The notes beneath the pieces were generated by a model that saw only the letters and a list, made by a program, of their open reading frames with translations, had not been told where the DNA came from and ran no database searches. Positions 14,420 to 52,897 of a stretch of DNA of 55,411 bases are shown piece after piece (within the stretch, counting starts at the first letter, position 1; every line of letters starts with the position of its first letter). The stretch is from positions 1 to 55,411 of IMG/VR virus record IMGVR_UViG_3300021197_001537; one strand, written 5' to 3'. The DNA comes from a virus. Made by a program: the position numbers and the translations under genes.

Positions 14420-15837
14420 TGTCTATTAAAAAGTTTTACGCAACAAAAGATACAACTATTACAAACGCCTATAAAGAAGACTTGAAAACACGAGCAACTG
14501 ATGCTAATATGGGCTTATCAGATTCTCTTGAAGTTTTCTTCATCTACGGGCAGAACCCTGACCCTGATGCAACAGACGCACAGAAAAGAGAAGAGTCAAG
14601 AATTCTTGTTTATCCGAATCTAGATGATATATGGACCTATTATGGCGTGTCTGCACCTTCCGATACAAAATTTGTCTTAAGACTTTTTAATGCAAAGCAC
14701 CCATTTACATTGCCAAAAAACTTTACACTCAATCTTTATCACTTCGAGGAAGCATGGCTAGAGGGTCACGGTCTGGACATGGAGTCTTATAAGGACATCG
14801 GTGCTCCAAATTGGGCTGAAAGGCAGACAGGAGCTAATTGGACCAGCGAAGGAGTGATAGACACTTCTACTCCTCCTGCTGGTTCTTTCATCAGCAGCAA
14901 GAATTTCGACACAGGCGATGAAGATTTGGAAATAGACATTACGTCTTTTATTGTAGATAATTGGAACACCATAGATGTAGACACCGCCTTTTTGATAACC
15001 TTCACTTCAACAGAGTCAGCAGGCGTAATCAACTTCTACACAAAGAAGTTCTTTTCTCGCTCATCAGAGTTCTTTTTCAAGCGACCAATTATCGAAGCAA
15101 GGTCTGCTAATGCCATCGGCGATGATAGAGGAAAATTCTATAAAGCTTCGCCATTGGCTACCAGCGATGTCCAAAGTTTATATCTATACAACACTGTCTC
15201 AGGAGTAAGGGAAAATATAACAGGTGTAGTAACCTTAGAATTGTTCTCAGGCTCTACACTAACACCAGAGACTCTCATCGGCACAGCAGCAGTCACAAAC
15301 CCAGAGACGGGAGTCTATAAGGGGACTATTACGATTAGCAGCGACGTTACTGTTGCGACCATATACGAAAAATGGGTAGTAGCAGGCACAACGACAATAA
15401 AAACTGGTTCAATAAAGCTTCTAACAAGAGAGCCAGAGACTAATGCAGGCGAGATTGACTACGTTGTAGACATTACAAATATGAAATCATCCTATTCAAG
15501 AGAGGAAACGGCAAAGTTCCGAGTTTACACTAGAGTAAAAGATTGGAATCCAACTATTTATACGGTAGCAAGTAAAGAGTTAGAAAACAACATTGTAGAA
15601 AAGATTTATTACAAGATTGTTCGAATGGTTGATGACGAAACTGTTATTGATTATGGAATTGGAACAACGCTTTTAAATAATGACCACACATTAGCTTCTT
15701 ATGACGCTTTAGGCAGTTATTTTGATTTTGATATGTCACTCTTGGAGAGTGGCTACATGTATGGAATCAAATTAATGTTCTCTGTAAATGGCGAACTATT
15801 GGAACAACCAGAGACTTTCAAATTTAGGGTAGATTAA
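14419..15837 (+). CDS. Baseplate-associated beta-sandwich protein, DNRLRE/CBM96-like N-terminus
   Basis: The 472-residue protein overlaps the gp6 stop by one base. Residues about 8-215 resemble a DNRLRE-type beta sandwich: a D-x-x-I-x-N-A start (KDTTITNAYKED), N-x-G-x-S-x-x-L-x-V (NMGLSDSLEVF), then R-x-L-V and a closing E-x-W ... W pattern (FEEAWLEGH, ANWTSEG). Residues about 230-330 look like a further Ig-like beta domain and the C-terminal 130 residues are also beta-rich. DNRLRE domains occur in secreted adhesins and glycan-associated proteins. Next to gp6 this is probably a structural wedge or fibre-attachment protein. The domain call is by motif only. Confidence 0.55.
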   Translation: MSIKKFYATKDTTITNAYKEDLKTRATDANMGLSDSLEVFFIYGQNPDPDATDAQKREESRILVYPNLDDIWTYYGVSAPSDTKFVLRLFNAKHPFTLPKNFTLNLYHFEEAWLEGHGLDMESYKDIGAPNWAERQTGANWTSEGVIDTSTPPAGSFISSKNFDTGDEDLEIDITSFIVDNWNTIDVDTAFLITFTSTESAGVINFYTKKFFSRSSEFFFKRPIIEARSANAIGDDRGKFYKASPLATSDVQSLYLYNTVSGVRENITGVVTLELFSGSTLTPETLIGTAAVTNPETGVYKGTITISSDVTVATIYEKWVVAGTTTIKTGSIKLLTREPETNAGEIDYVVDITNMKSSYSREETAKFRVYTRVKDWNPTIYTVASKELENNIVEKIYYKIVRMVDDETVIDYGIGTTLLNNDHTLASYDALGSYFDFDMSLLESGYMYGIKLMFSVNGELLEQPETFKFRVD

Positions 15838-18800
15838 TGAGCGTAAAAAATCTGTTTAACAAGCGATTAAACAATAAAGTCGTAACTAAAACACAAGCAG
15901 ATAACCTCACTAACGACATCGAGTCAGCAGAGTTGGTAAGTGATGTTGTAAAGTCAGAGAATACTCTTATCCCTCACGTTGACTTTTCAGACCCAAAGAA
16001 CTTTTCTCGTTATGGCTCTGCTGAAAAATACTATGAAGATTCATTCGCAAGAGTCTATAAGACCTTTCCTTATGATGGTTCGACATCCGAGATTCAAAAG
16101 TGGCAAAACGAATCCTCCTATCTAGACAGATGGATATTCGACAATGCCTATCCTAAGTCAACTGGTTATGTAAAATTAGGAACTAACCAGTCTGTAACGG
16201 CGAAAGGTGGTCCAAACAACCAACCAGGGGTTACAGAAGGCGAAGCAGAAGAGCTTTCTAAACAGTTCCCTGTTAAATCAGGTAATTCTAACATCTGGGA
16301 CACCTCAATTTATAGAAACTCTAATCTCTATATTGACGGGGCATTAGGAAACACTGTTGAATTTTGGGCTAAACTTGAGTCCACATTTTCTGGCTCATTC
16401 GTTACGTTCAACGTAGGAAATGAAGCACAGTCTATTATAATGTCCGTTCGCTTTCGAACAACCGATGGTCTCCTAACCCTCGTCTATAGAGACGACACTG
16501 CTTCTGGCTTATCGACAACTACAAACATCGTTGATTTAATTACCACGACTTGGAGCCACTTGGCATTCTCATTTGTCAATGAAGGCGGTCAAGTAAAGGT
16601 CGAGGTCTATAAGAACGGCACAAGAGTCCACACTCAGGCAACTGGAACAGCTATTGGTTCAGTTACCCAGGTTGATTCAAAGTTAAACATAAATGGCACA
16701 TCTACTGGAACTTTGTCTGCTGATGGCTTTTATGTTGACGAATTCCGCTTCTGGAAGCAGCGAAGAACAGAAGAACAGATAGGAAGACATTGGTTCACAC
16801 AAGTTACAGGTGGAACAAACACAGACAACAATAAATATAGCGAAGAGAGTAACATCGTAGACCTCGGAATTTATTACAAATTCAACGAAGGTATTACAAC
16901 AGACGATTCTATTGACGCTACTGTTCTCGATTATTCAGGAAGAATTTCAAACGGAACAATCGCAAACTACTCTTCAACAGTTAGAAACACAGGTTCAGCG
17001 ATTAACGAATCAGGTCTTGTCGATGCCGACGATTATGAATTGCCCGACCCAATTGTTTACTCAACTCATCCGAGCTACGTCTCGGCATTGGAAGAATATA
17101 AACTCTTAGGTCAGACTCACGACTACACAAATAATGCCTCTATCTATCACACGATGCCAGCTTGGATTCTTGAAGAAGATGACGTCAATGGACAGAACAT
17201 TAAAGAGTTAACACAAGTTATCAGTAGTCACTTCGATGACACTCATCTTCGGATAAGCGAATTAACTAATTTAAAAAACAACGAATACTATTCTTTAGAA
17301 GAAGAATCAGACAAGCCATTCTTTTTTGTTAACAGGGCTTTGGAGTCTACTGGTCTTATAGTTCCTGACTTGTTTGTAGAGGCTACGGCTTTTGAAGAGA
17401 TTCTCTCAAGAGGCGAGCAAGAGCTTTTCGACGAAAAGATTCAAGACATTAAGAATGTTATTTATCAAAACATTTACAACAATGTCTCTTATATCTACAA
17501 GTCAAAGGGTGCTGAAAAAGCGTTTAGAAATCTCATCCGCTGCTTTGGCGTTGATGATGAATTAATTAAGATTAATCTTTATTCTGATAACTCTGATTAC
17601 ACGCTTGAGGATACAAGAAGAACAACAGCCATTAAAAAGAATGTTGTAGATTTCAATGACCCAGATAGAAATGATGCACTTGTCTATTCAAACGAGGTAG
17701 CAGCACGAGCAGAGACATCATCCTTTATTCCAGGCGTTCCATCTGCAAAGAGCAACCTTATTTCTCTTACCTTCGAGGCAGAGGCTATTTTTCCAAAGAG
17801 ACTTTCAGTGGAGCACCCAAACTATGTTTCACCAACTGGTCTTGAGAAGCAGATTGCAATGCTTGGTGAGGCAGATTCATTGGCTTCAGGTGACGCTGTT
17901 TATCAGGCAAGCATAAACCCAATCTTCAGCATTTATGCAAAGAAGGACGATGCTACGTCTGAAAACATAAAGTTCGCTCTATCATCTACTCTTCTCGGTG
18001 CTGACATCGAGACGGACGCAACTTATAAAGAGACTTATGATAACTCAAAGTGGAACTTTGCAGTAAGGCTTTCACCAATAAAAGAAATTGGAGATACAGT
18101 TTTAGGTGGTGCAACTTCTGATTATAACCTTGAGTTCTACGGCGTTAAGATGCTTGCAGATGAAGTTGAAGAGGAGTTCACAAAAACTACCGTTATAACT
18201 TCTTCTAACGCTCGGGCAGCAATGGAGTTGGCAAAGTTTGTTTCAGTAGGTGCTTTAAAGACAGATGCAGACCCTACCAACGCTACAACAGTAAGAGACA
18301 CTGACATCAAGGTCTCTTCGGTTAGATTTTGGTATGATTATCTATCAGACGCAGAAATCAAGGGACACGCTTCAGATGCAAGCAACTTTGGTAGACTAAA
18401 CCCAAACGCTGATGCCTATGCTTTTGTAACAAGTTTGTCAAGTGGTCTCACAACAGACATCCGAGTTCCAAGAAAAGATACTCTTGCACTCTTTTGGGAT
18501 TTCTCAAACGTAACAGCAGCAGACAGTTCAGGCGAGTTCATTGTAGAAGACTTGTCGGACAGAATAACAGACGGTCGTTATGGCTGGTTTACTGACTTAT
18601 TAGATAAACAAATAACTGGTAGAGGCAGGAGATTCTTAGCAGACGATAAACAGGTCGTAAACAAAGAGTTCCTTTACTCTGCAAAACATAGAACACCAGA
18701 GGTCTTAAATTCAGAAGACCTTATTGAGATTAGAACTCAAGACGACGATAAATTCACAAGAGAGTCCAGACCAATCACTCACTTCTTTGCTGCTGAAAAG

Positions 18801-21800
18801 AGCATGTATCAGGTTATTGATGATGACATCATTAATCTATTCGCTTCTATCGTAGAGTTCAATGACTTGATTGGTCAGCCAGTCAACAGATATCGAATGA
18901 ACTACAAGGCACTAGAGAAGTTTAGACAACTCTATTTCCAAAAGGTTCAAAACGTTCCAAGTCTTGAGAAATATGTTCACTTCTATAAGTGGCTTGACTC
19001 TTCAATTGGAATGATGATTGAACAGCTTATTCCTATTTCAAGCAATTTCTCCTCAACTCTTCGAACGATGGTCGAGAACCATACTTTAGAGAGAAACAAG
19101 TATTGGACAAAGTTTCCAACTCTTGAAATGAAACAGGACATCCCAGAGGGTCAGGTAAGAGGCATTCGGGAAATGCTTTATGATTGGGAGTCTGGCTCGG
19201 CACCAATAACAAAGGTTGCAGAGTTTGACGGAGCAGCGGACTTTATCAATGTTCCTGACGCTGATAGTTTATCCTTTGGAGATGGAACAACAGATTCCTC
19301 ATTCTCTATTGCAGCTTGGGTTTACATTCCAACGACGGTGAGTTCACCAGGGACTATCGTTTCCAAATATAACAGCTTCGCCTCAAACAGTGAATACTAC
19401 CTCCAGCACGACCCGTTTAATCAATTAACACTTGTTATGATTGACACATCGGCTGCGGTTTCCATTTCAGCCTTTAAAACAGGTGCGTTCACCCTTGGCA
19501 AGTGGCAACACCTTGTTGTAACCTTTGATTCAACCGAGGCTGACCCTGAAGATGGAATTGAAATGTACATCGACGGCACCCTTCAGTCGCTGGACAACCG
19601 AATTGGAAATGTCGCCTATGTAGCGATGGAAAATGGAACAGCCCCAGTAAGAATCGGAACTCTTGCAACAACTACGGACCCTTTCGAGGGCAAGATGTCT
19701 AATCTGGCATTCTTCAATAGAGACTTAACACAAACAGAAGTGACTGACCTCTATAATGGCGGAATAGTTCTTGACTTAGTAGAGCATTCTGCTTATAATG
19801 ATGTTATTTCTTGGTGGAAGTTCGGAGAAGGCGACACAGCAGGAGCAGATAAGGTTATCGACCAAAAGGGTTCAAACAACGGAACCCTAAATGGTGACAC
19901 GGCAATCGTAAGAGACCTTGCCCTACCTTCAGGCGATGCTTGCTTGTGGAACGATGAAAGAGTAGAAAGAACTGACCCAGGTGTCACTTCGGGAGTTTCT
20001 ACGGTCGATGATGACCGAGAGACAATTAGAAACGTTGCTGTTAGAGATATTAAAGGTCAGACAAAGGTTGTCAAGAGAGGAAGTGTTTTCGTAGAAGAAG
20101 CTTCGCCAATCTTATATGACCACACAACAACCACTTCCTATGAGGGCAGCACTTATGCTGTTAGAAGATTGTCAAAGCCTTATAAGTTTGGAGTTGACAA
20201 AGCTTTAACTATTCGAGGCGGAGCAAACTACGCAGAGATAACAAAAGACCCGAATGAGTTTATTAGAGCGTCAACAACTATCACGACTGGAACTTCAGGA
20301 ATTGAGTTAAATGGTGTTGAACCTAACCCAGAAACTTGCTATGATAAGGGTGATAAAGAAAAATTTAGAAGAGCACACAAGATTACGCTCACGAACTCTG
20401 TAACGAGCACACAAGAGAGTTTAAAGGGCTCACAGGGGATGTTTCCACGCTATGGAGAGACACCAACTGGCGGTGCTGCTGAGTTAACAAACATCCATAA
20501 TGACTCTTACGGCGACGACGCAGAGATTCCTATTCAAGGTCCGTTTACCAATCAATGGGTAGGTGGTAATCAGCACCGTCACGTTTATCTTGCAACACCA
20601 GCCGCTGACAGACCAGAGCTTTACTTAAATGTTGCGGATACTCTTCGCCACCCACACGAAGTAGACCCAAACAATCCATCTGCTCGTTACACGAGAGATG
20701 AGTTGGCAAAGAGACCATTGAATATCGAGAACATTAAGTTCGAAGAAGGTGAGCCTGGACCTCTTGGTAATTATTCAAGAGTTTATCAAGTTGTTCAAAC
20801 ATCAGGAAGAACTCAGAACAATAGATTCTTGGTTAGAAACCCAGATTACTCGATTGTTAAGCAAGCCTCTTCTGCTATTACAGACGCTTTCGATTTCACT
20901 CTTCCAAATAGGGATGAGAATGCTGACGCAACGACCTTCGGAAGAACAGAGCACGTTTTCGTAGAAAGATTCTCTGCACCTGGTGACCCTCTTACAGTTC
21001 CAAGAGGTCAGATGGACGTAGAAGCAGAAGAATTCAGTTCCTACAATTCGTTGAACTTTAGAAACCTTACTGTAAGAACTCACTTAAACTTCTGGCAAAC
21101 ACAACACAGTGCAGTCCAAAGTGGCTCACAGGGCTATAGGTTGATGGAAGGCTTCAACACTGGCTTGGACGGCGTAGCAGCTTATCAGAAGAACAATAGA
21201 AACCCTTCAGTAAGAATGAGTTTGAAAATTCAGGATGACCCTTCGAACCACTCTGGCTCTTATGGTTGCATAACAAACTATGACAACTTCTTTATTGGTC
21301 ATCAATTGCCAAGGTCAGATTTTCAATATGCTTGGGTTACAGCTTCTGCTTTACCAGACTCTTCGGTTATTGATTGCGATAACTTGGCAACAGTTTATCC
21401 AAGACTCGGCGGTTATGTTTCTGGCTATTCAAACGCTTCAATAGACATCACTTTCGTTTCTCAAAGTTATAACCCCTTGGTTACAAAGACTTTATCAATT
21501 GAAAGTGGTCTCGTCGAACCATCTGGTAGCGTTATGCCCTTATCTGGGTCTGGAGACTACACACCAAACGACCTTTTTCTAGATAGAAATGGACCTTATC
21601 AGGGGGCAAGCTGGAAGTTATTCCGTGGTCAGGACAGACCATTAGTTATAGAACAAAGAAGACAAAACACCATTTCAGTTATTAGTCGCTCTGACGAAAA
21701 CACTTTTGAAAACTACGTTGAACCTGTTGTTACTTGGAATCTTCAAACGAGAGGTTCCATAGGAGAGCTTACACAAGTAGATGCTTATTCACCAGGAATA

Positions 21801-24800
21801 ATTCTTACCGACTATACTGCATCTTATTCAAATAATTTAGAGTTCTTTGCAAATCCAAATTTAAGAGAAAGAGTTTCTGTAGTTAAAGACCCTGTTCAGT
21901 TCTATGACCAGGTGATGTCAGAGTTGCGTAATGTAGATTCAAACTTGGGCTACAAAGAATTTATTTACAGTGAAATTGTTTATCCAAAGCATAGAAATGT
22001 TGGCTTGACAAAGATTCGTGAGCGAGCAAAGCTGGACGATTATAACGTCTTTTGGAAAGATAAGTTCCTTGATAGAATTAGAAAAGATTCAAACCCGAAC
22101 AAGCTTGGTTGGGCGACAATTGAAGAGAAGAAAAACTTCTTAAAACAGAAGAACTCGAACTTCTCAATGGATAATTTCTATTATTCACAAACCCTCGGTG
22201 GAGTTGAGACAGTTTATAACGTTATTGGCGATTTATCTTATGTTGGAGAACAGAGATACTTCGATTGGATAAAGAGTAGAAAACACTCAACATTACCTGA
22301 TTCAGCGTTAACAACAACGACATCAGGTCTCGAAAGTCTCCCAGCGGCAGAGCCAGCGACGGAAACGGTTGTAAGATATAGCTCGGACGCTATAAAAGAG
22401 ACACAGGTCGCACCAACACCTGCGGCTCAACTCTATTACAATCCTCTCAATGGAGGCAGTCGTGAATCAGGCTGGATTAGCAGAACATCAGAATTGTCTG
22501 ACAATTCGCCTGCTTATAACGATTATGATTCTTACAACTTAGAACTTCGTTCCATAGGTCAGAACTATGGAATCTTATCAGAGTTCAGAATTTCACAACA
22601 CATGGATAAGTATGTTAATGAACAAGGCGGAGACTTTAGAGCAAAGAATTATAATTTCTTATCTCTAGACGGCGCATCCTATGACGCCAACCGCCATGAA
22701 GGAAAAACTCACACTCAATTCAGCGGAAAGACTGTCACCACAAAGGACGAGACAGTTTATTCTTTAAGTGGTTTTGAAAATGAGCGTGTGACAATAGGAG
22801 CCTACCCTTCAGCCTTCAGTGATGTCACTAATGTGATAAACAATGCAGCTAAGGTTTATGCAGATTTTAACCCAATAAAGGCTTCAGAAACATTTACTTT
22901 AGAAAACAGCATCTTAACTGGCAGAAAGATTGGACCAACCTATGCACTTGGTCGTGAACCTGTCTTTCCATATATGTCTGGTTATAACGCAGCGGCTAAA
23001 TTTAACTTAAGTTCTACATCAGATGATTTCTTAGCAGTTAGGCTAAATAAAGTCTCTCAGACTAGCGACAACCAGTTTCTTAAATTGAGTGAAAAGGCTT
23101 TCACATTCTCCATTTGGGCTCAACCAGACTCTTCACTACAGAACAGCAGGGATAATTCAGCCATTGCGACCCTCGGAAACAAGGGTTCTCGCCTCGCTGG
23201 AAATTATGAGAGTATTGTTTTGATGTCAAGATTTAAGCACCCAAACGGTGTAAAATCAGAGGTTCACAGTTCAGACCAACTTGGCTTGACAGTTGTCTTT
23301 TCAGACTCGAAAGATGTGGTCAATGGAGAATTCAATAAGATTCTCACTACAAGCTCGGTCTATTGTTTCTTCAATAGCGACGGAACACCAGCATTTTTGA
23401 AACCAGATGAATTCAACCACGTAGCATTTCAACTTGTTCCGTTCTTGAATGCAACAAGACCAATGATGATAAAGATGTGGCTCAATGGTGTGGAAGTTTA
23501 TGGCGTTCATGCAAAGGCGATTGACACATCACAAGTCGCAGATATCTACGGCTACTCGCCTTGCCCAGTAGGTAAGTTTCCAACTGCAAGTTATCCTTGG
23601 GGTGAAAATCTTGACACTGATTTGAATCTCGAAAGTCGTATCATTGACAGATACGCTTTAGGCTGCGGTAGTTTCTCGCACTCTCTTGGGAATAAATTAG
23701 AGGCAAATGAAAGAATGTCATTTAGTGGTCTGCTCGACGAGCACTCTTTATGGACAGGCATTTTATCAGAAGCAAGCTTGGACAGGCTCTATAATAATGG
23801 AATTCCAGGGAACATCTTAGAGGATAAAGAGAACTCTGACATCTTCGCTGGCTACACATCCGCTACTACAAAGTGGGACATCAACTATTCTACAAACGGA
23901 ATCACTATAGATGACACGGGGACATCGGTAACGAATCCAAACCTAGCTTTCGAATATAGTTTAGTCCAGACCCAAGCAAACTTCGACCTTCCTGTTTGGC
24001 ACCGAATCGGTGTTCCTTATGTAGAGAAGACCGAGACTTGTGATGGTTGGGATGATGAGTTCTTCAACTCTTACGTCCACACTGACAACGTTAAGTTCTT
24101 GGAAAAGGTTGTCGATGACCACGAGGCACTTGGTAGAAAGCCTCGGTTAAGAGTAAACTTAAAAGTAAGTGCTATAAAGAAGCTTCTTCCTTATGAAGGA
24201 TTTTATCCACAAGATAGAACAGTCCAAATAGCAAGCTTATTTTCAGACAAGATTAGCAAGATTTCAGACGAGTCTAGTACCTTCTTCAAAGAACAGCAGG
24301 TTCAGACTGCGTTACAACACTTTTTTGCACCAGGAATTCTTTATAATTCTATAAAAGCGGGATTATCTGTAGACTGGGCATCATTTACTGATAAAACAGG
24401 TCTTGAGCAGAACTTCGTCGATGATAATAGAACTGTAATTGGCTCAGGTTCATTTGATTTCGCCACTTATGCTCCAAACTGGTATGCACCTCGAACAGAT
24501 AGGAACGATGTCAATGAAGCACTTGGAAACAAGCCTGGTGATTTTGCAGATTCAAACTTAGCAAAAAGCCAACCTTCCTTCAAGCAAGGTCTTCAGGGTA
24601 ATGGTTTCGTAATTCTACAAGAACCAGACACAAGACTTCCGTTTGAAGCACTCCTTAATCCAAGAGACTATTTGTCAAGAACTTCTCGTGCCGTCAATCT
24701 TGAAGGGCAGATTTTCCACCACAGTGACCTTGAGATTTTTGATTGGAATGCCGAAGGCACTTTCCTGACTATTAGTCACGTAGAAGAAGGTTCAAATGGA

Positions 24801-27722
24801 AGCCCAGAGGTGAAAACAACTAGAGTTTCAATTGGAGACCCGAATGTTCCAGTTAATGAGGGAATAGATTGGGACGTCAAGGTTGACTTCAGGAGAACCC
24901 CAGAGGGGCTTTCCATCGCAAGAAGAAATTCTACAACGGGAGAGGTAGAAAGGACTTCTGCGAACCAGTTTAGCACGAGCCAATCGGAGATTACTTCAGC
25001 TAGATTGAATGAAGAAATTGCAGTAAAGCTCTGTAGAGCAATAAATAAAAATCAAGAATTGTCAGTAATCGCCATTCCAGGCACCACACCAAATTATACA
25101 TTTGGACAATCTCGCTCCGATGATATAATTGGGTCAGACGATAAAATAGCGCAAATATTTGAAGAGACTTATAAAGGAGGACTGCCACAGCTTTTTGAAG
25201 GAGCCAATCTAGGAATTCAAACCAACGGAAGTTGGAAGATTAGATTATTTTATGTAGGACCAGATTCCCTCCCTAGCCTCCCTAGCGAAGAAGGAGAAGA
25301 AGCGTTTCGTAATAAAGAAGAAGAAATGGACTCCATGAGTTTTACTGGCGGTTCGGAGAAATTCAAGAACTCTGGAAAGACTTACGGAGAATTAACGACA
25401 ATCCAATCCACAAGGGTCATGGGCGTCTTAAATTCAACCAATTCCTTCGACGGAAACACTATGATTGGCTGGTCGAATTACTCGATTGCCTCGGAACTCG
25501 GATTAAAGATTCTTAACAGTAACGGCAACATTGACTTTTCTTCAATTTCCAGTTCAAACACAGGTTCTGGTTTCTTGGATGCCACAATCTTTGGAATGAC
25601 GACAGAACTAAGGCAAGGAGAGCAAGGTCAAGTTGTTCAGTCCGATAGGGCAACGACGCAAGGACCAATATCTTTCTATAACCCTGTTGAGAGGGAAAGA
25701 GACCAGGTAGAAAAGAATCCATTCAAATTTTACCTAATGACGCCAGAATATTATAGCCTAAAATCTAAGTTGTATGGTGAGGAGTTGGAGCAGTTCTCTT
25801 ACCCATCTTTCGAATGGTCAGATGAGAGCAGTAGTGATATTAGATATGAGTTGGCGATAAATAACTTCTTAGCAGAAGTTCCTAAGTTCTTCCTGAAGAA
25901 TCAAGGTCTTACAACTATAGCTTCAAAGCCAGAGAACGAGTTCAAGGCAATGACTGCTGGTAAGACCTATTACATGGACGTAAGTGTTCAGAAGACAAGA
26001 GGATTTGAGATTGCACTATCACCAACCTCGTCAGAGGGTCGATATTTCGGACCTTCATTCAAGTGGAAGAAATTGTCCGACTATAGTGAACCGAAAGACC
26101 TTGTTGCTGGTCCAGCCCAAGCACCCTATGTTCCACCTTATCTACACGGCAAATCGACAACAAGAATGTCATTTGTTCCTAGTGAGAGTAGAACTTACAC
26201 GCTAGAAGAGATTCTTTCTGGATTGTCAACGGAGGACATCACAGAAGAGCAGCACAACTACTTTGAATCACAAGCGTCAGGCTCCTACTTCGAGGACACG
26301 CCAGCCTGGAAGTCAAGAATGACCGTTAGGTCGTCGTTCAATCTTACTGGTAAGGCGAGGGTTAAAAAGACAAACTTTGATACATCTGTCAGTGTCGCAA
26401 AACCTCTTTCAGAGAATCAAAGTCAAGCTGTTGTCACTTCAGCGGTAGAATCAGAAGGAACTGCTTATGACACTTGGGTAATTTCACCAAAGTTCGAATG
26501 TCCAGTTCTTAATTTTAATAATGCTGAAAATGGTGTTACAAGAGTTGTTAGACAAGATGCAGGTGTCTACGAGATAAAGCAAGAGGAGACCTTGAACTAT
26601 GAAGGTGCTGCCACATCTGTTAACTACAAAGTCTCAAACGACAAATCCGCCGTCTCCACCGATGGCACCCCTTCTTATGAGAGCGGCACTGGAACCTGGG
26701 CTGGCTATGGCTCAATCCCACAGCAGTCAGAAGGCATTTTCGTTTCAATCGAGGAGAGTTTTTCAAACCCAGGGAATTCAAATAGAACTGCTGGCTCATT
26801 AATCGACGTGTGCGGATTCACTGCCACGCAGGAAAAGATTGGTGACATCGCAGAATCCAGAGAAATTTCAGAGGCGATTGTAATGATACCGTTCCTTGAT
26901 AGGGGAGACGCACCACTCTCGCAATATATAAGAGAAGGTTCAAGATTTAATAGCAACGTCTCTAGCTTACCTATCAACACGGCTTCTGCGACTTCGACTA
27001 ACGGAAGAACAATCGCCCCTGTCCGAATCGACCCCACTCCGCCTATTAGAGAAACAGAAGGGCAGCAAGTAAGAACAACAAAGGTTGACGGAAGAAATTT
27101 TATTTCAATAACTAAGGAGAACTTTTTAGCTCAAAAGAGCAACATTGAAAATGGCTTACCAGCAATCACATCGACGGAGAGAGCAGACTTGGGTGAGCCA
27201 AAGCAAGAGACTACAATCTCAAGAATGATTAAGATGATGAAGAAATATAACCTTCCACCTCGTTATGATTTTATCACCTATCCTATGTCAGCAGGCGAAA
27301 ATCCTTTTGTAATGTATTTCTTTGAGTTCACACAGACCCTTGGAAAACAAGACCTTGCTGACATTTGGCAAGGCGTTAAGCCAGAGATAGCTAATAAAGC
27401 TGTTAGACAAGAAAAACAAATCATTCATGACTTAGGACCAAGCGAGTTCTTTGAAGGAAATGAAATTCCATCAGATATCCGCTGGATGGTTTTTAAAGTG
27501 AAGAGGAAGGCAAGTGCTGACTACTTCGAAATGGCAAAAGATTCCAGAGAAGACTCAAGATTTAAGTTTGACTTCAAGGTCGGAAAAAAGAAGCCAGAAT
27601 ATAGTTATAACTATCCTTATGACTTTTTCAGTTTAATCGAGATGGCGAAGATTGAGTCAGGAATTGAGATAGAGACTGACCCAGAGGACTTAGTTAAGGA
27701 TAATAACAGGAACCAGGAATAG
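15837..27722 (+). CDS. Giant (3961 aa) tail/baseplate protein with several LamG-like domains
   Basis: One uninterrupted 11.9-kb frame starts in a TAATG overlap. I see four LamG/concanavalin-like jelly rolls: about residues 160-320 (NTVEFWAKL ... VDEFRFWKQRRTEEQIG), 695-850 (IKVSSVRFWYDYLSDAEIKG at its end), 1129-1355 (SFSIAAWVYIP ... GKWQHLVVTFD ... VISWWKFGEGD) and 2420-2640 (FTFSIWAQPDS ... DEHSLWTGILSEASLDRLYNNG). Between them lie long beta-rich, aromatic segments without a recognisable family; the C-terminal 150 residues are basic. LamG domains bind glycans or proteins. The position between gp6 and other baseplate genes suggests a peripheral wedge component or a baseplate-anchored adhesin. 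No transmembrane or signal sequence is visible. Length far exceeds any T4 baseplate protein. Confidence 0.75.
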   Translation: MSVKNLFNKRLNNKVVTKTQADNLTNDIESAELVSDVVKSENTLIPHVDFSDPKNFSRYGSAEKYYEDSFARVYKTFPYDGSTSEIQKWQNESSYLDRWIFDNAYPKSTGYVKLGTNQSVTAKGGPNNQPGVTEGEAEELSKQFPVKSGNSNIWDTSIYRNSNLYIDGALGNTVEFWAKLESTFSGSFVTFNVGNEAQSIIMSVRFRTTDGLLTLVYRDDTASGLSTTTNIVDLITTTWSHLAFSFVNEGGQVKVEVYKNGTRVHTQATGTAIGSVTQVDSKLNINGTSTGTLSADGFYVDEFRFWKQRRTEEQIGRHWFTQVTGGTNTDNNKYSEESNIVDLGIYYKFNEGITTDDSIDATVLDYSGRISNGTIANYSSTVRNTGSAINESGLVDADDYELPDPIVYSTHPSYVSALEEYKLLGQTHDYTNNASIYHTMPAWILEEDDVNGQNIKELTQVISSHFDDTHLRISELTNLKNNEYYSLEEESDKPFFFVNRALESTGLIVPDLFVEATAFEEILSRGEQELFDEKIQDIKNVIYQNIYNNVSYIYKSKGAEKAFRNLIRCFGVDDELIKINLYSDNSDYTLEDTRRTTAIKKNVVDFNDPDRNDALVYSNEVAARAETSSFIPGVPSAKSNLISLTFEAEAIFPKRLSVEHPNYVSPTGLEKQIAMLGEADSLASGDAVYQASINPIFSIYAKKDDATSENIKFALSSTLLGADIETDATYKETYDNSKWNFAVRLSPIKEIGDTVLGGATSDYNLEFYGVKMLADEVEEEFTKTTVITSSNARAAMELAKFVSVGALKTDADPTNATTVRDTDIKVSSVRFWYDYLSDAEIKGHASDASNFGRLNPNADAYAFVTSLSSGLTTDIRVPRKDTLALFWDFSNVTAADSSGEFIVEDLSDRITDGRYGWFTDLLDKQITGRGRRFLADDKQVVNKEFLYSAKHRTPEVLNSEDLIEIRTQDDDKFTRESRPITHFFAAEKSMYQVIDDDIINLFASIVEFNDLIGQPVNRYRMNYKALEKFRQLYFQKVQNVPSLEKYVHFYKWLDSSIGMMIEQLIPISSNFSSTLRTMVENHTLERNKYWTKFPTLEMKQDIPEGQVRGIREMLYDWESGSAPITKVAEFDGAADFINVPDADSLSFGDGTTDSSFSIAAWVYIPTTVSSPGTIVSKYNSFASNSEYYLQHDPFNQLTLVMIDTSAAVSISAFKTGAFTLGKWQHLVVTFDSTEADPEDGIEMYIDGTLQSLDNRIGNVAYVAMENGTAPVRIGTLATTTDPFEGKMSNLAFFNRDLTQTEVTDLYNGGIVLDLVEHSAYNDVISWWKFGEGDTAGADKVIDQKGSNNGTLNGDTAIVRDLALPSGDACLWNDERVERTDPGVTSGVSTVDDDRETIRNVAVRDIKGQTKVVKRGSVFVEEASPILYDHTTTTSYEGSTYAVRRLSKPYKFGVDKALTIRGGANYAEITKDPNEFIRASTTITTGTSGIELNGVEPNPETCYDKGDKEKFRRAHKITLTNSVTSTQESLKGSQGMFPRYGETPTGGAAELTNIHNDSYGDDAEIPIQGPFTNQWVGGNQHRHVYLATPAADRPELYLNVADTLRHPHEVDPNNPSARYTRDELAKRPLNIENIKFEEGEPGPLGNYSRVYQVVQTSGRTQNNRFLVRNPDYSIVKQASSAITDAFDFTLPNRDENADATTFGRTEHVFVERFSAPGDPLTVPRGQMDVEAEEFSSYNSLNFRNLTVRTHLNFWQTQHSAVQSGSQGYRLMEGFNTGLDGVAAYQKNNRNPSVRMSLKIQDDPSNHSGSYGCITNYDNFFIGHQLPRSDFQYAWVTASALPDSSVIDCDNLATVYPRLGGYVSGYSNASIDITFVSQSYNPLVTKTLSIESGLVEPSGSVMPLSGSGDYTPNDLFLDRNGPYQGASWKLFRGQDRPLVIEQRRQNTISVISRSDENTFENYVEPVVTWNLQTRGSIGELTQVDAYSPGIILTDYTASYSNNLEFFANPNLRERVSVVKDPVQFYDQVMSELRNVDSNLGYKEFIYSEIVYPKHRNVGLTKIRERAKLDDYNVFWKDKFLDRIRKDSNPNKLGWATIEEKKNFLKQKNSNFSMDNFYYSQTLGGVETVYNVIGDLSYVGEQRYFDWIKSRKHSTLPDSALTTTTSGLESLPAAEPATETVVRYSSDAIKETQVAPTPAAQLYYNPLNGGSRESGWISRTSELSDNSPAYNDYDSYNLELRSIGQNYGILSEFRISQHMDKYVNEQGGDFRAKNYNFLSLDGASYDANRHEGKTHTQFSGKTVTTKDETVYSLSGFENERVTIGAYPSAFSDVTNVINNAAKVYADFNPIKASETFTLENSILTGRKIGPTYALGREPVFPYMSGYNAAAKFNLSSTSDDFLAVRLNKVSQTSDNQFLKLSEKAFTFSIWAQPDSSLQNSRDNSAIATLGNKGSRLAGNYESIVLMSRFKHPNGVKSEVHSSDQLGLTVVFSDSKDVVNGEFNKILTTSSVYCFFNSDGTPAFLKPDEFNHVAFQLVPFLNATRPMMIKMWLNGVEVYGVHAKAIDTSQVADIYGYSPCPVGKFPTASYPWGENLDTDLNLESRIIDRYALGCGSFSHSLGNKLEANERMSFSGLLDEHSLWTGILSEASLDRLYNNGIPGNILEDKENSDIFAGYTSATTKWDINYSTNGITIDDTGTSVTNPNLAFEYSLVQTQANFDLPVWHRIGVPYVEKTETCDGWDDEFFNSYVHTDNVKFLEKVVDDHEALGRKPRLRVNLKVSAIKKLLPYEGFYPQDRTVQIASLFSDKISKISDESSTFFKEQQVQTALQHFFAPGILYNSIKAGLSVDWASFTDKTGLEQNFVDDNRTVIGSGSFDFATYAPNWYAPRTDRNDVNEALGNKPGDFADSNLAKSQPSFKQGLQGNGFVILQEPDTRLPFEALLNPRDYLSRTSRAVNLEGQIFHHSDLEIFDWNAEGTFLTISHVEEGSNGSPEVKTTRVSIGDPNVPVNEGIDWDVKVDFRRTPEGLSIARRNSTTGEVERTSANQFSTSQSEITSARLNEEIAVKLCRAINKNQELSVIAIPGTTPNYTFGQSRSDDIIGSDDKIAQIFEETYKGGLPQLFEGANLGIQTNGSWKIRLFYVGPDSLPSLPSEEGEEAFRNKEEEMDSMSFTGGSEKFKNSGKTYGELTTIQSTRVMGVLNSTNSFDGNTMIGWSNYSIASELGLKILNSNGNIDFSSISSSNTGSGFLDATIFGMTTELRQGEQGQVVQSDRATTQGPISFYNPVERERDQVEKNPFKFYLMTPEYYSLKSKLYGEELEQFSYPSFEWSDESSSDIRYELAINNFLAEVPKFFLKNQGLTTIASKPENEFKAMTAGKTYYMDVSVQKTRGFEIALSPTSSEGRYFGPSFKWKKLSDYSEPKDLVAGPAQAPYVPPYLHGKSTTRMSFVPSESRTYTLEEILSGLSTEDITEEQHNYFESQASGSYFEDTPAWKSRMTVRSSFNLTGKARVKKTNFDTSVSVAKPLSENQSQAVVTSAVESEGTAYDTWVISPKFECPVLNFNNAENGVTRVVRQDAGVYEIKQEETLNYEGAATSVNYKVSNDKSAVSTDGTPSYESGTGTWAGYGSIPQQSEGIFVSIEESFSNPGNSNRTAGSLIDVCGFTATQEKIGDIAESREISEAIVMIPFLDRGDAPLSQYIREGSRFNSNVSSLPINTASATSTNGRTIAPVRIDPTPPIRETEGQQVRTTKVDGRNFISITKENFLAQKSNIENGLPAITSTERADLGEPKQETTISRMIKMMKKYNLPPRYDFITYPMSAGENPFVMYFFEFTQTLGKQDLADIWQGVKPEIANKAVRQEKQIIHDLGPSEFFEGNEIPSDIRWMVFKVKRKASADYFEMAKDSREDSRFKFDFKVGKKKPEYSYNYPYDFFSLIEMAKIESGIEIETDPEDLVKDNNRNQE

Positions 27723-52016: not shown

Positions 52017-52897
52017 TGGTCGACCCAAACTCTAAAGTTATAAACCCAGACGGAACAGAAAGAACTTTGCGTCAAATTTGGGGCAGACCTACAGGTAGAG
52101 TTATCGCACCCATGAGCACCAAAGCCATTCAGTTCGACGGCACCGATGACATTGTAACTGTCACTGACGATGATGCTTTTAGTCCAACAAATGGTGTAAC
52201 AGATACGCCGTTTTCTATTTCTGCTTGGGTTTGGGTGGGAGACATTGCTACAGACAATGGTCCTTTTGTTACAAAATCAAACAACGACATCCCCGTCCGA
52301 AATGAATACATTTTTAAGCACGCTAACGGCAAATTGGGCGCTTTTGTTTATGACAGCACTCTCAGTGCTAACGGTAACGCTCTTCGAGCCCAAGCACCCG
52401 CAGCGTCTCTGACAAGTGCAACTTGGCACCATGTTGTTGTAACTTATGATGGTAGCACGTCCGCAGCAGGATTAAAAATCTACGCAGAAGGTTCGCTGGT
52501 GACAACAACAAATGATGAGTCAGGAACCTATGACAGGCTCAAGAACACAGCAACTCCATTAACCTTTGGCTCAACTCAAGACGCAAACGTCCCCGCCCGA
52601 AGATTCGAAGATTATCTTGCGGACATTTGCTTCTTCAATAAAGAGTTATCCGCAGCAGAGGTCTTGGAAGTCTTCAACGGTACCGAAGGCGTCGTAGGCT
52701 CAGGAAGAGTAAAAGACATGAGCAAATTCTCAGATGTCAGCAGCATTGTTGGCTGGTGGCAAATGGGCGACGGAGACAATAACGGAACCAACGGAATTCT
52801 CGATTCTATTGGTTCAAATAACGGCACAGTGGAAAATGGCTCGATAATAGTTCAAGCCAAAAACTTAAAATCAGATTACATAACCAAGATACTTTAA
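52016..52897 (+). CDS. LamG/concanavalin-like domain protein (putative adhesin)
   Basis: The 293-residue protein starts in a one-base overlap. After a 40-residue N-terminal segment (PNSKVINPDGTERTLRQIWG) comes a LamG-like jelly roll, about residues 38-285: IQFDGTDDIVTV, FSISAWVWVG, TWHHVVVTYDG, YLADICFFNKELSAAEV and IVGWWQMGDGDN. The last element closely resembles VISWWKFGEGDT of the third LamG domain of the giant protein at 15837. LamG modules bind sugars, so a role in host-surface binding is inferred. The N-terminal segment recurs at the C-terminus of the protein at 53213, which marks a duplication and fusion event. Confidence 0.75.
   Translation: MVDPNSKVINPDGTERTLRQIWGRPTGRVIAPMSTKAIQFDGTDDIVTVTDDDAFSPTNGVTDTPFSISAWVWVGDIATDNGPFVTKSNNDIPVRNEYIFKHANGKLGAFVYDSTLSANGNALRAQAPAASLTSATWHHVVVTYDGSTSAAGLKIYAEGSLVTTTNDESGTYDRLKNTATPLTFGSTQDANVPARRFEDYLADICFFNKELSAAEVLEVFNGTEGVVGSGRVKDMSKFSDVSSIVGWWQMGDGDNNGTNGILDSIGSNNGTVENGSIIVQAKNLKSDYITKIL

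Follow-up and report, generated by a model that had tools for sequence, protein, structure and literature searches.

Background

What kind of protein is encoded by a single reading frame of 3961 codons, and what are the several LamG domains within it for? The question is raised by a 55,411-bp single virus record (IMG/VR IMGVR_UViG_3300021197_001537), referred to here as the window. A preliminary description of its sequence had assigned the product to the tail or baseplate, with a possible role in host recognition distinct from classical fibres, and had proposed that four LamG modules, separated by long uncharacterised beta-rich regions, form a multi-valent glycan-binding skirt around the baseplate.

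In published contractile tails, the periphery of the baseplate is made of BW3, to which the receptor-binding proteins are attached in most of the tails studied (PMC10811340). Here we present a bioinformatic analysis of the long gene and its relatives, from which it appears probable, though well short of certain, that the product is a BW3-class outer wedge protein (the class of T4 gp7, P2 gpI and pyocin PA0619) from a myovirus of the T4 superfamily, and that it has grown through exchangeable host-glycan-binding lectin modules and through fusion to structural modules downstream.

Results

A long gene in a baseplate wedge operon

The frame is stop-free over its whole length, confirming the one long gene first described, and at the junction with the preceding gene stop and start codons overlap (Table 1). 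It lies in a wedge operon after gp25 and gp6/J homologues, with one or two small genes between. This order, gp25, gp6-like gene, an intervening gene and then the long gene, was found in the window and in the relatives checked; in Flavobacterium phage immuto and Microcystis phage Mel-JY01 the same order ends in a shorter gene that shares the core described below. The gp6/gpJ-like product matches its immuto and Mel-JY01 counterparts at 28% over its full length, and the terminase of the window is closest to that of immuto (45%).

The intervening 472-residue product gave no CBM96 match in the window itself, and its positional counterpart in Mel-JY01 (L218:16887-18047) gave a weak one (E 5.5e-5, below the cut-off); from this match it is possible that the position holds a second carbohydrate-binding neighbour of the wedge.

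Table 1. Features of the window; residue numbers refer to the 3961-residue product
Feature	Position	Strand	Basis
gp25-like baseplate wedge gene, 130 aa	12160..12552	+	Pfam GPW_gp25, E 1.1e-13
gp6/gpJ-like baseplate wedge gene, 613 aa	12578..14419	+	PHROG baseplate wedge, E 1.5e-19
Gene between gp6-like gene and long gene, 472 aa	14419..15837	+	Position
Putative wedge-type protein, 3961 aa	15837..27722	+	ORF translation
LamG1, residues 160-330	16314..16826	+	Pfam, family LamG profile, AlphaFold2 fold
Putative wedge core, first half, residues 405-600, motif KGTEK..RNLIRCFG	17049..17636	+	Profile comparisons
LamG2, residues 601-950, inserted between core halves	17637..18686	+	Fold only; sequence E 0.25
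Putative wedge core, second half, residues 955-1090	18699..19106	+	Collinear match to immuto gene 161, E 1.7e-5
LamG3, residues 1130-1309, accessory cassette	19224..19763	+	Pfam, E 1.5e-28
Conserved module 2, residues 1345-2280; separate gene or gene border in some relatives	19869..22676	+	Coverage by relatives
LamG4, residues 2409-2655, accessory	23061..23801	+	Family LamG profile
Conserved module 3, residues 2730-2950	24024..24686	+	Coverage by relatives
Conserved C-terminal module, residues 3330-3950, best-covered stretch of the family	25824..27686	+	Coverage by relatives
Stand-alone LamG protein, 293 aa	52016..52897	+	Pfam Laminin_G_3 match at 52145-52663

A family of relatives in metagenomic contigs

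A single-sequence scan of IMG/VR viral contigs recovered one relative (L002, 3152 aa). Scanning with the alignment of two sequences recovered 157, of which 80 were kept for a first family set of 81 loci, and scans with two other members recovered 123 and 412. More than 400 IMG/VR viral contigs, up to 204 kb in length, encode relatives of the N-terminal module, and the complete members encoded by a single gene run from 2842 to 4753 aa. Except for the short relatives in immuto, Mel-JY01 and the 484-kb phage LR756508, all members are metagenomic contigs. No match was obtained in a DNA-level search of a phage collection, in a tblastn search of phages with the C-terminal two thirds of the protein, or in PHROGs with the protein and its relatives; a PDB sequence search gave nothing useful, the DotG match being to repeats.

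Assignment of a host from genome contigs was set aside as unreliable, since the matches were short metagenome-bin contigs or a fragment in a WOR-3 MAG. The latter (L388, CP070664.1) is a piece of the gene in a 2.8-Mb bacterial chromosome without the upstream wedge genes, and is probably a misassembly or contamination.

Four LamG folds, two of them accessory

The protein contains four LamG/concanavalin-type folds, three of them detected by sequence profiles and LamG2 by predicted structure only. Pfam Laminin_G_3 matched residues 1134-1302 (LamG3, E 1.5e-28, over the curated cut-off), and a genome-wide Pfam scan gave a second match within the gene at residues 171-315 (LamG1, 38 bits, over the cut-off). 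With a LamG profile built from the relatives only, the window being left out, LamG1 was found at 171-319 (E 1.3e-22), LamG3 at 1155-1307 (E 1.2e-17) and LamG4 at 2420-2653 (E 2.3e-7); LamG2 did not reach significance with this profile (E 0.25), and the reversed protein, as a control, scored at best E 23. An AlphaFold2 model of residues 1-1128, made from a 67-sequence alignment (mean pLDDT 75), returned concanavalin/pentraxin folds in a fold search at 108-404 (VIA Z up to 16.7, rmsd 3.8, 207 aligned) and at 600-950 (Z 15.9, rmsd 3.4, 215 aligned), both matching pentraxin, PAPP-A LG and neurexin-type folds. The count of four modules first given is thereby confirmed, structure prediction having yielded the expected folds in the N-terminal model, and the intervals are off by no more than tens of residues, apart from that of LamG2, which occupies about 601-950 rather than 695-850.

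Every one of the 81 loci in the first family set has LamG1, and conservation extends to the LamG2 region. Coverage of the window protein by its relatives is 80-100% over most parts, about 27% over residues 1140-1320 (LamG3) and 2% over 2400-2620 (LamG4). LamG3 is a clean insertion in the alignment with L002, and LamG4 has a clear counterpart in L005 only. In the sequences compared, LamG1 is universal in the family, and LamG3 and LamG4 are accessory insertions. Recent internal duplication as the origin of these two was rejected: the gene has no DNA repeat, and their nearest relatives are the cassettes of L005, not each other. Among the relatives the number of extra LamG domains varies from zero to five, at varying places, with up to six LamG domains in total in L029.

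Some loci have unusual arrangements. In L052 and L057 an extra LamG is seemingly nested within LamG1 (near residues 172-613 of the window protein), and in L083 one lies within the N-terminal module, outside LamG1 (near 672-861). In L044 (2642-18107), LamG1 is interrupted by about 4 kb containing two further ORFs that look structural; the locus may be rearranged or the contig chimeric.

A core shared with shorter wedge-operon genes

The two stretches flanking LamG2 form a core that is helical in the AlphaFold2 model of residues 1-1128. Immuto gene 161 (1265 aa) matches the family profile collinearly at positions 439-611 (E 1.9e-18) and 1014-1115 (E 1.7e-5); the two stretches are about 70 residues apart in immuto, where no LamG was detectable by profile, and about 400 apart in the long protein, where LamG2 sits. 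The core is also found near the gp6 homologue in a 1336-residue gene of Mel-JY01 (E 2e-27) and a 1404-residue gene of LR756508 (E 7e-29), and carries the motif [Y/F]..KGTE.S.R.L.

Sub-threshold matches of the core were obtained to TIGR02242, a phage tail protein domain (21 of 59 members, best E 0.0038), and to Tail_P2_I (13 of 59 members, best E 0.032). In profile-profile comparisons with hhalign, gpI (E 0.0029) and gp7 (0.025) were the best of eight baseplate proteins, both again sub-threshold; gp6, gp8, gp9, gp10, gpJ and gpH gave 0.07-0.71, and the reversed core 0.37-0.86. The gp7 structure was not among the fold-search matches of the 1-1128 model, a list filled by LamG folds, and the T4 gp8 profile (PF09215) was silent in the relatives, but so was its control. 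Because the separately weak matches agree with each other and with the gene order, we take the helical core (405-600 and 955-1090) to be, most likely, a wedge domain of BW3 type (gp7/gpI).

Gene order, shared core and folds together support the original placement in the tail or baseplate. The accompanying statement that T4 has no baseplate protein of this kind stands in that the LamG profile found nothing among the T4 baseplate gene products; it needs amending in that the core most resembles, below threshold, the T4 gp7 / P2 gpI wedge class. This resemblance also makes the protein look like an elaborated wedge protein and not like a glycan-binding skirt separate from the wedge. A skirt would be in keeping with four LamG folds in a single protein and with a beta-rich C-terminal part of no known fold, but the core is common to much shorter genes that lack the C-terminal fusion and occupy the BW3 position of the operon, which makes the protein primarily a wedge component to which lectins were added. 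We therefore consider a separate skirt quite improbable.

LamG1 is replaced between close relatives

Two relatives, L013 and L015, are 95-97% identical across 26 kb, with next-door genes at about 97%. Within their N-terminal modules the helical core and LamG2 are identical in protein sequence, whereas LamG1 is only about 42% identical. The dS is 1.93 in LamG1 and 0.61 in the stretch just before it, compared with 0.07-0.25 in residues 325-1085. Saturation in LamG1 next to low values in the residues after it argues for replacement of a DNA segment and not for fast point mutation; the divergence looks like an allele replacement, and the exchanged tract seems to start in the stretch just before LamG1. 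When the 26 kb were divided into 200-bp bins, every bin below 85% identity fell within the long gene: in the LamG1 region, in one bin close to the site of the LamG3 insertion, and where the first ORF of the split gene ends. This last region (L013 15868-16868) is a second hypervariable stretch and is not LamG by profile.

LamG1 identities of 0.39-0.45 against flanks above 0.8 were also found between L007 and its relatives and between L246 and both L245 and L265. Over 77 close pairs, which are not independent, mean identity was 0.71 for LamG1, 0.76 for LamG2 and 0.88 for the flanks. In AU tree tests a single LamG1 clade remained tenable for the swapped pairs (p 0.25, 0.08 and 0.11), so the donors of LamG1 cannot be named.

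All of the LamG1 swaps are read from metagenomic assemblies, in which hypervariable regions are easily mis-joined, and the divergence might in principle be an artefact of chimeric contigs. That it recurs in three lineages, with conserved flanks on both sides and the frame open throughout, and that the other divergent bins fall in the same gene instead of being scattered, makes this explanation very improbable. Host-range modules typically show localised replacement within an otherwise constant protein, and, formal AU tests aside, LamG1 is replaced against just such a conserved background. The host-recognition role first suggested thus gains new support from LamG1 allele swapping. That this role would be distinct from classical fibres is more tentative, other fibre genes being possible.

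LamG folds elsewhere also have structural or protein-binding uses, and the domains here could be structural or assembly modules, engaged in wedge-wedge contact or fibre docking, with LamG1 varying along with a partner protein and separate fibres, encoded elsewhere, binding the receptor. Such a role would fit the presence of LamG1 and LamG2 in every member, within the conserved module, and the fact that published BW3 proteins mainly anchor receptor-binding proteins (PMC10811340). The genome also has other LamG proteins, and the LamG gene past the portal gene (52016) counts against reading the domains as adhesins. Accessory cassettes that are gained and lost, however, are unexpected for contact modules, and LamG1 was replaced while the rest of module 1 stayed unchanged and the next-door genes remained about 97% identical, so that no co-varying partner could be seen within the 26 kb compared. 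We regard a purely structural role as rather unlikely.

Modular build of the gene

Several relatives have the gene in pieces, divided at residues 1125/1545 (L012, L050 and L070), 1794/1815 (L008 and L063) or 1585/2735 (L013, L015, L016 and L052). Since the splits recur at the same borders, the N-terminal module (about residues 1-1125) can stand as a separate gene, and the long gene would be a fusion of a wedge protein with further structural modules. The C-terminal part was modelled on residues 1643-2842 of the compact relative L056 (pTM 0.72, mean pLDDT 65). A fold search of this model against the PDB gave no match (best E 0.09; VIA best Z 5.2), and its matches in BFVD were uncharacterised marine virus proteins only. 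The earlier picture of long uncharacterised beta-rich regions holds for this conserved part; taken as a whole, the preliminary interpretation is partly supported.

Discussion

As a BW3-like wedge protein, the long product would be expected to pair, by analogy, through its helical core with two gp6-like subunits in each of the six wedges. LamG1, LamG2 and the optional LamG3 and LamG4 would protrude from the wedge and attach to glycans of the host surface; with six copies of four domains, a particle would have about 24 weak sites. LamG1 alleles and accessory LamG cassettes would be exchanged between phages by recombination, and attachment specificity could thereby change without rebuilding of the baseplate. 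Presence in the virion, stoichiometry, orientation and glycan binding are what we infer here, a glycan ligand following from the fold class only. A broader proposition, which we put forward tentatively as possible, is that this large marine T4-like group relies for receptor binding mainly on the wedge, as an evolvable device: a conserved scaffold with a fixed LamG1 slot for recombining alleles and with optional slots for LamG cassettes, which are gained, lost and exchanged also with stand-alone genes, leaving a smaller role to classical fibres.

Like the long protein, the BW3 proteins T4 gp7, P2 gpI and pyocin PA0619 are encoded after gp25 and gp6/J-like genes and have a KGT..S.R.L motif, and they are its best profile match in the panel, with sub-threshold similarity. 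They are 176-1032 aa long, in contrast to 3961 aa, and lack the LamG fold that parts the core halves, the extra LamG domains and the C-terminal fusion. Immuto gene 161 and Mel-JY01 WWT39511 (1336 aa) have a homologous core at the same operon position without LamG1 or the C-terminal fusion, WWT39511 giving only a weak LamG-like match (E 0.0014).

A lectin-bearing wedge protein is already known. The BW3 protein Gp119 of Bacillus phage Vp4, which has CBMs, decorates host cells, whereas its CBM-less homologue Gp177 does not (PMC11406892). Gp119 resembles the long protein in having lectin-type modules on a wedge protein, in its case absent from a close homologue and with cell binding shown; it is an 831-aa protein with CBM16-type modules from the Herelleviridae (PMC11406892), whereas the modules described here are LamG domains that occur throughout a marine family and show both allele swapping and accessory cassettes. 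The LamG version in the T4-like marine group is thus a variant, extending to that group an idea shown, in the literature searched, for one Bacillus phage. LamG3 lectin domains are also known from tail fibres and components of the virion in jumbo phages, where they are not presented as wedge proteins or swapped modules (PMC7824862), and a literature search for LamG and baseplate in marine phages found no paper.

The analysis names a family of more than 400 uncultured marine phage contigs whose products would otherwise read as huge hypothetical proteins, and links this family with the wedge of the baseplate. Its likely specificity switch, LamG1, opens host recognition in these marine phages to tests with recombinant single domains, and may serve as a marker for host-range differences in metagenomes.

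The stand-alone LamG gene of the window is located past the terminase and portal genes. Its product is 44% identical to the cassette at the LamG3 site (site A) of L005 and 30% identical to the window's own LamG3, a likeness that suggests cassette exchange between loci. Before the tail genes, at 87-2542, the window has two neighbouring GT4-type glycosyltransferase genes.
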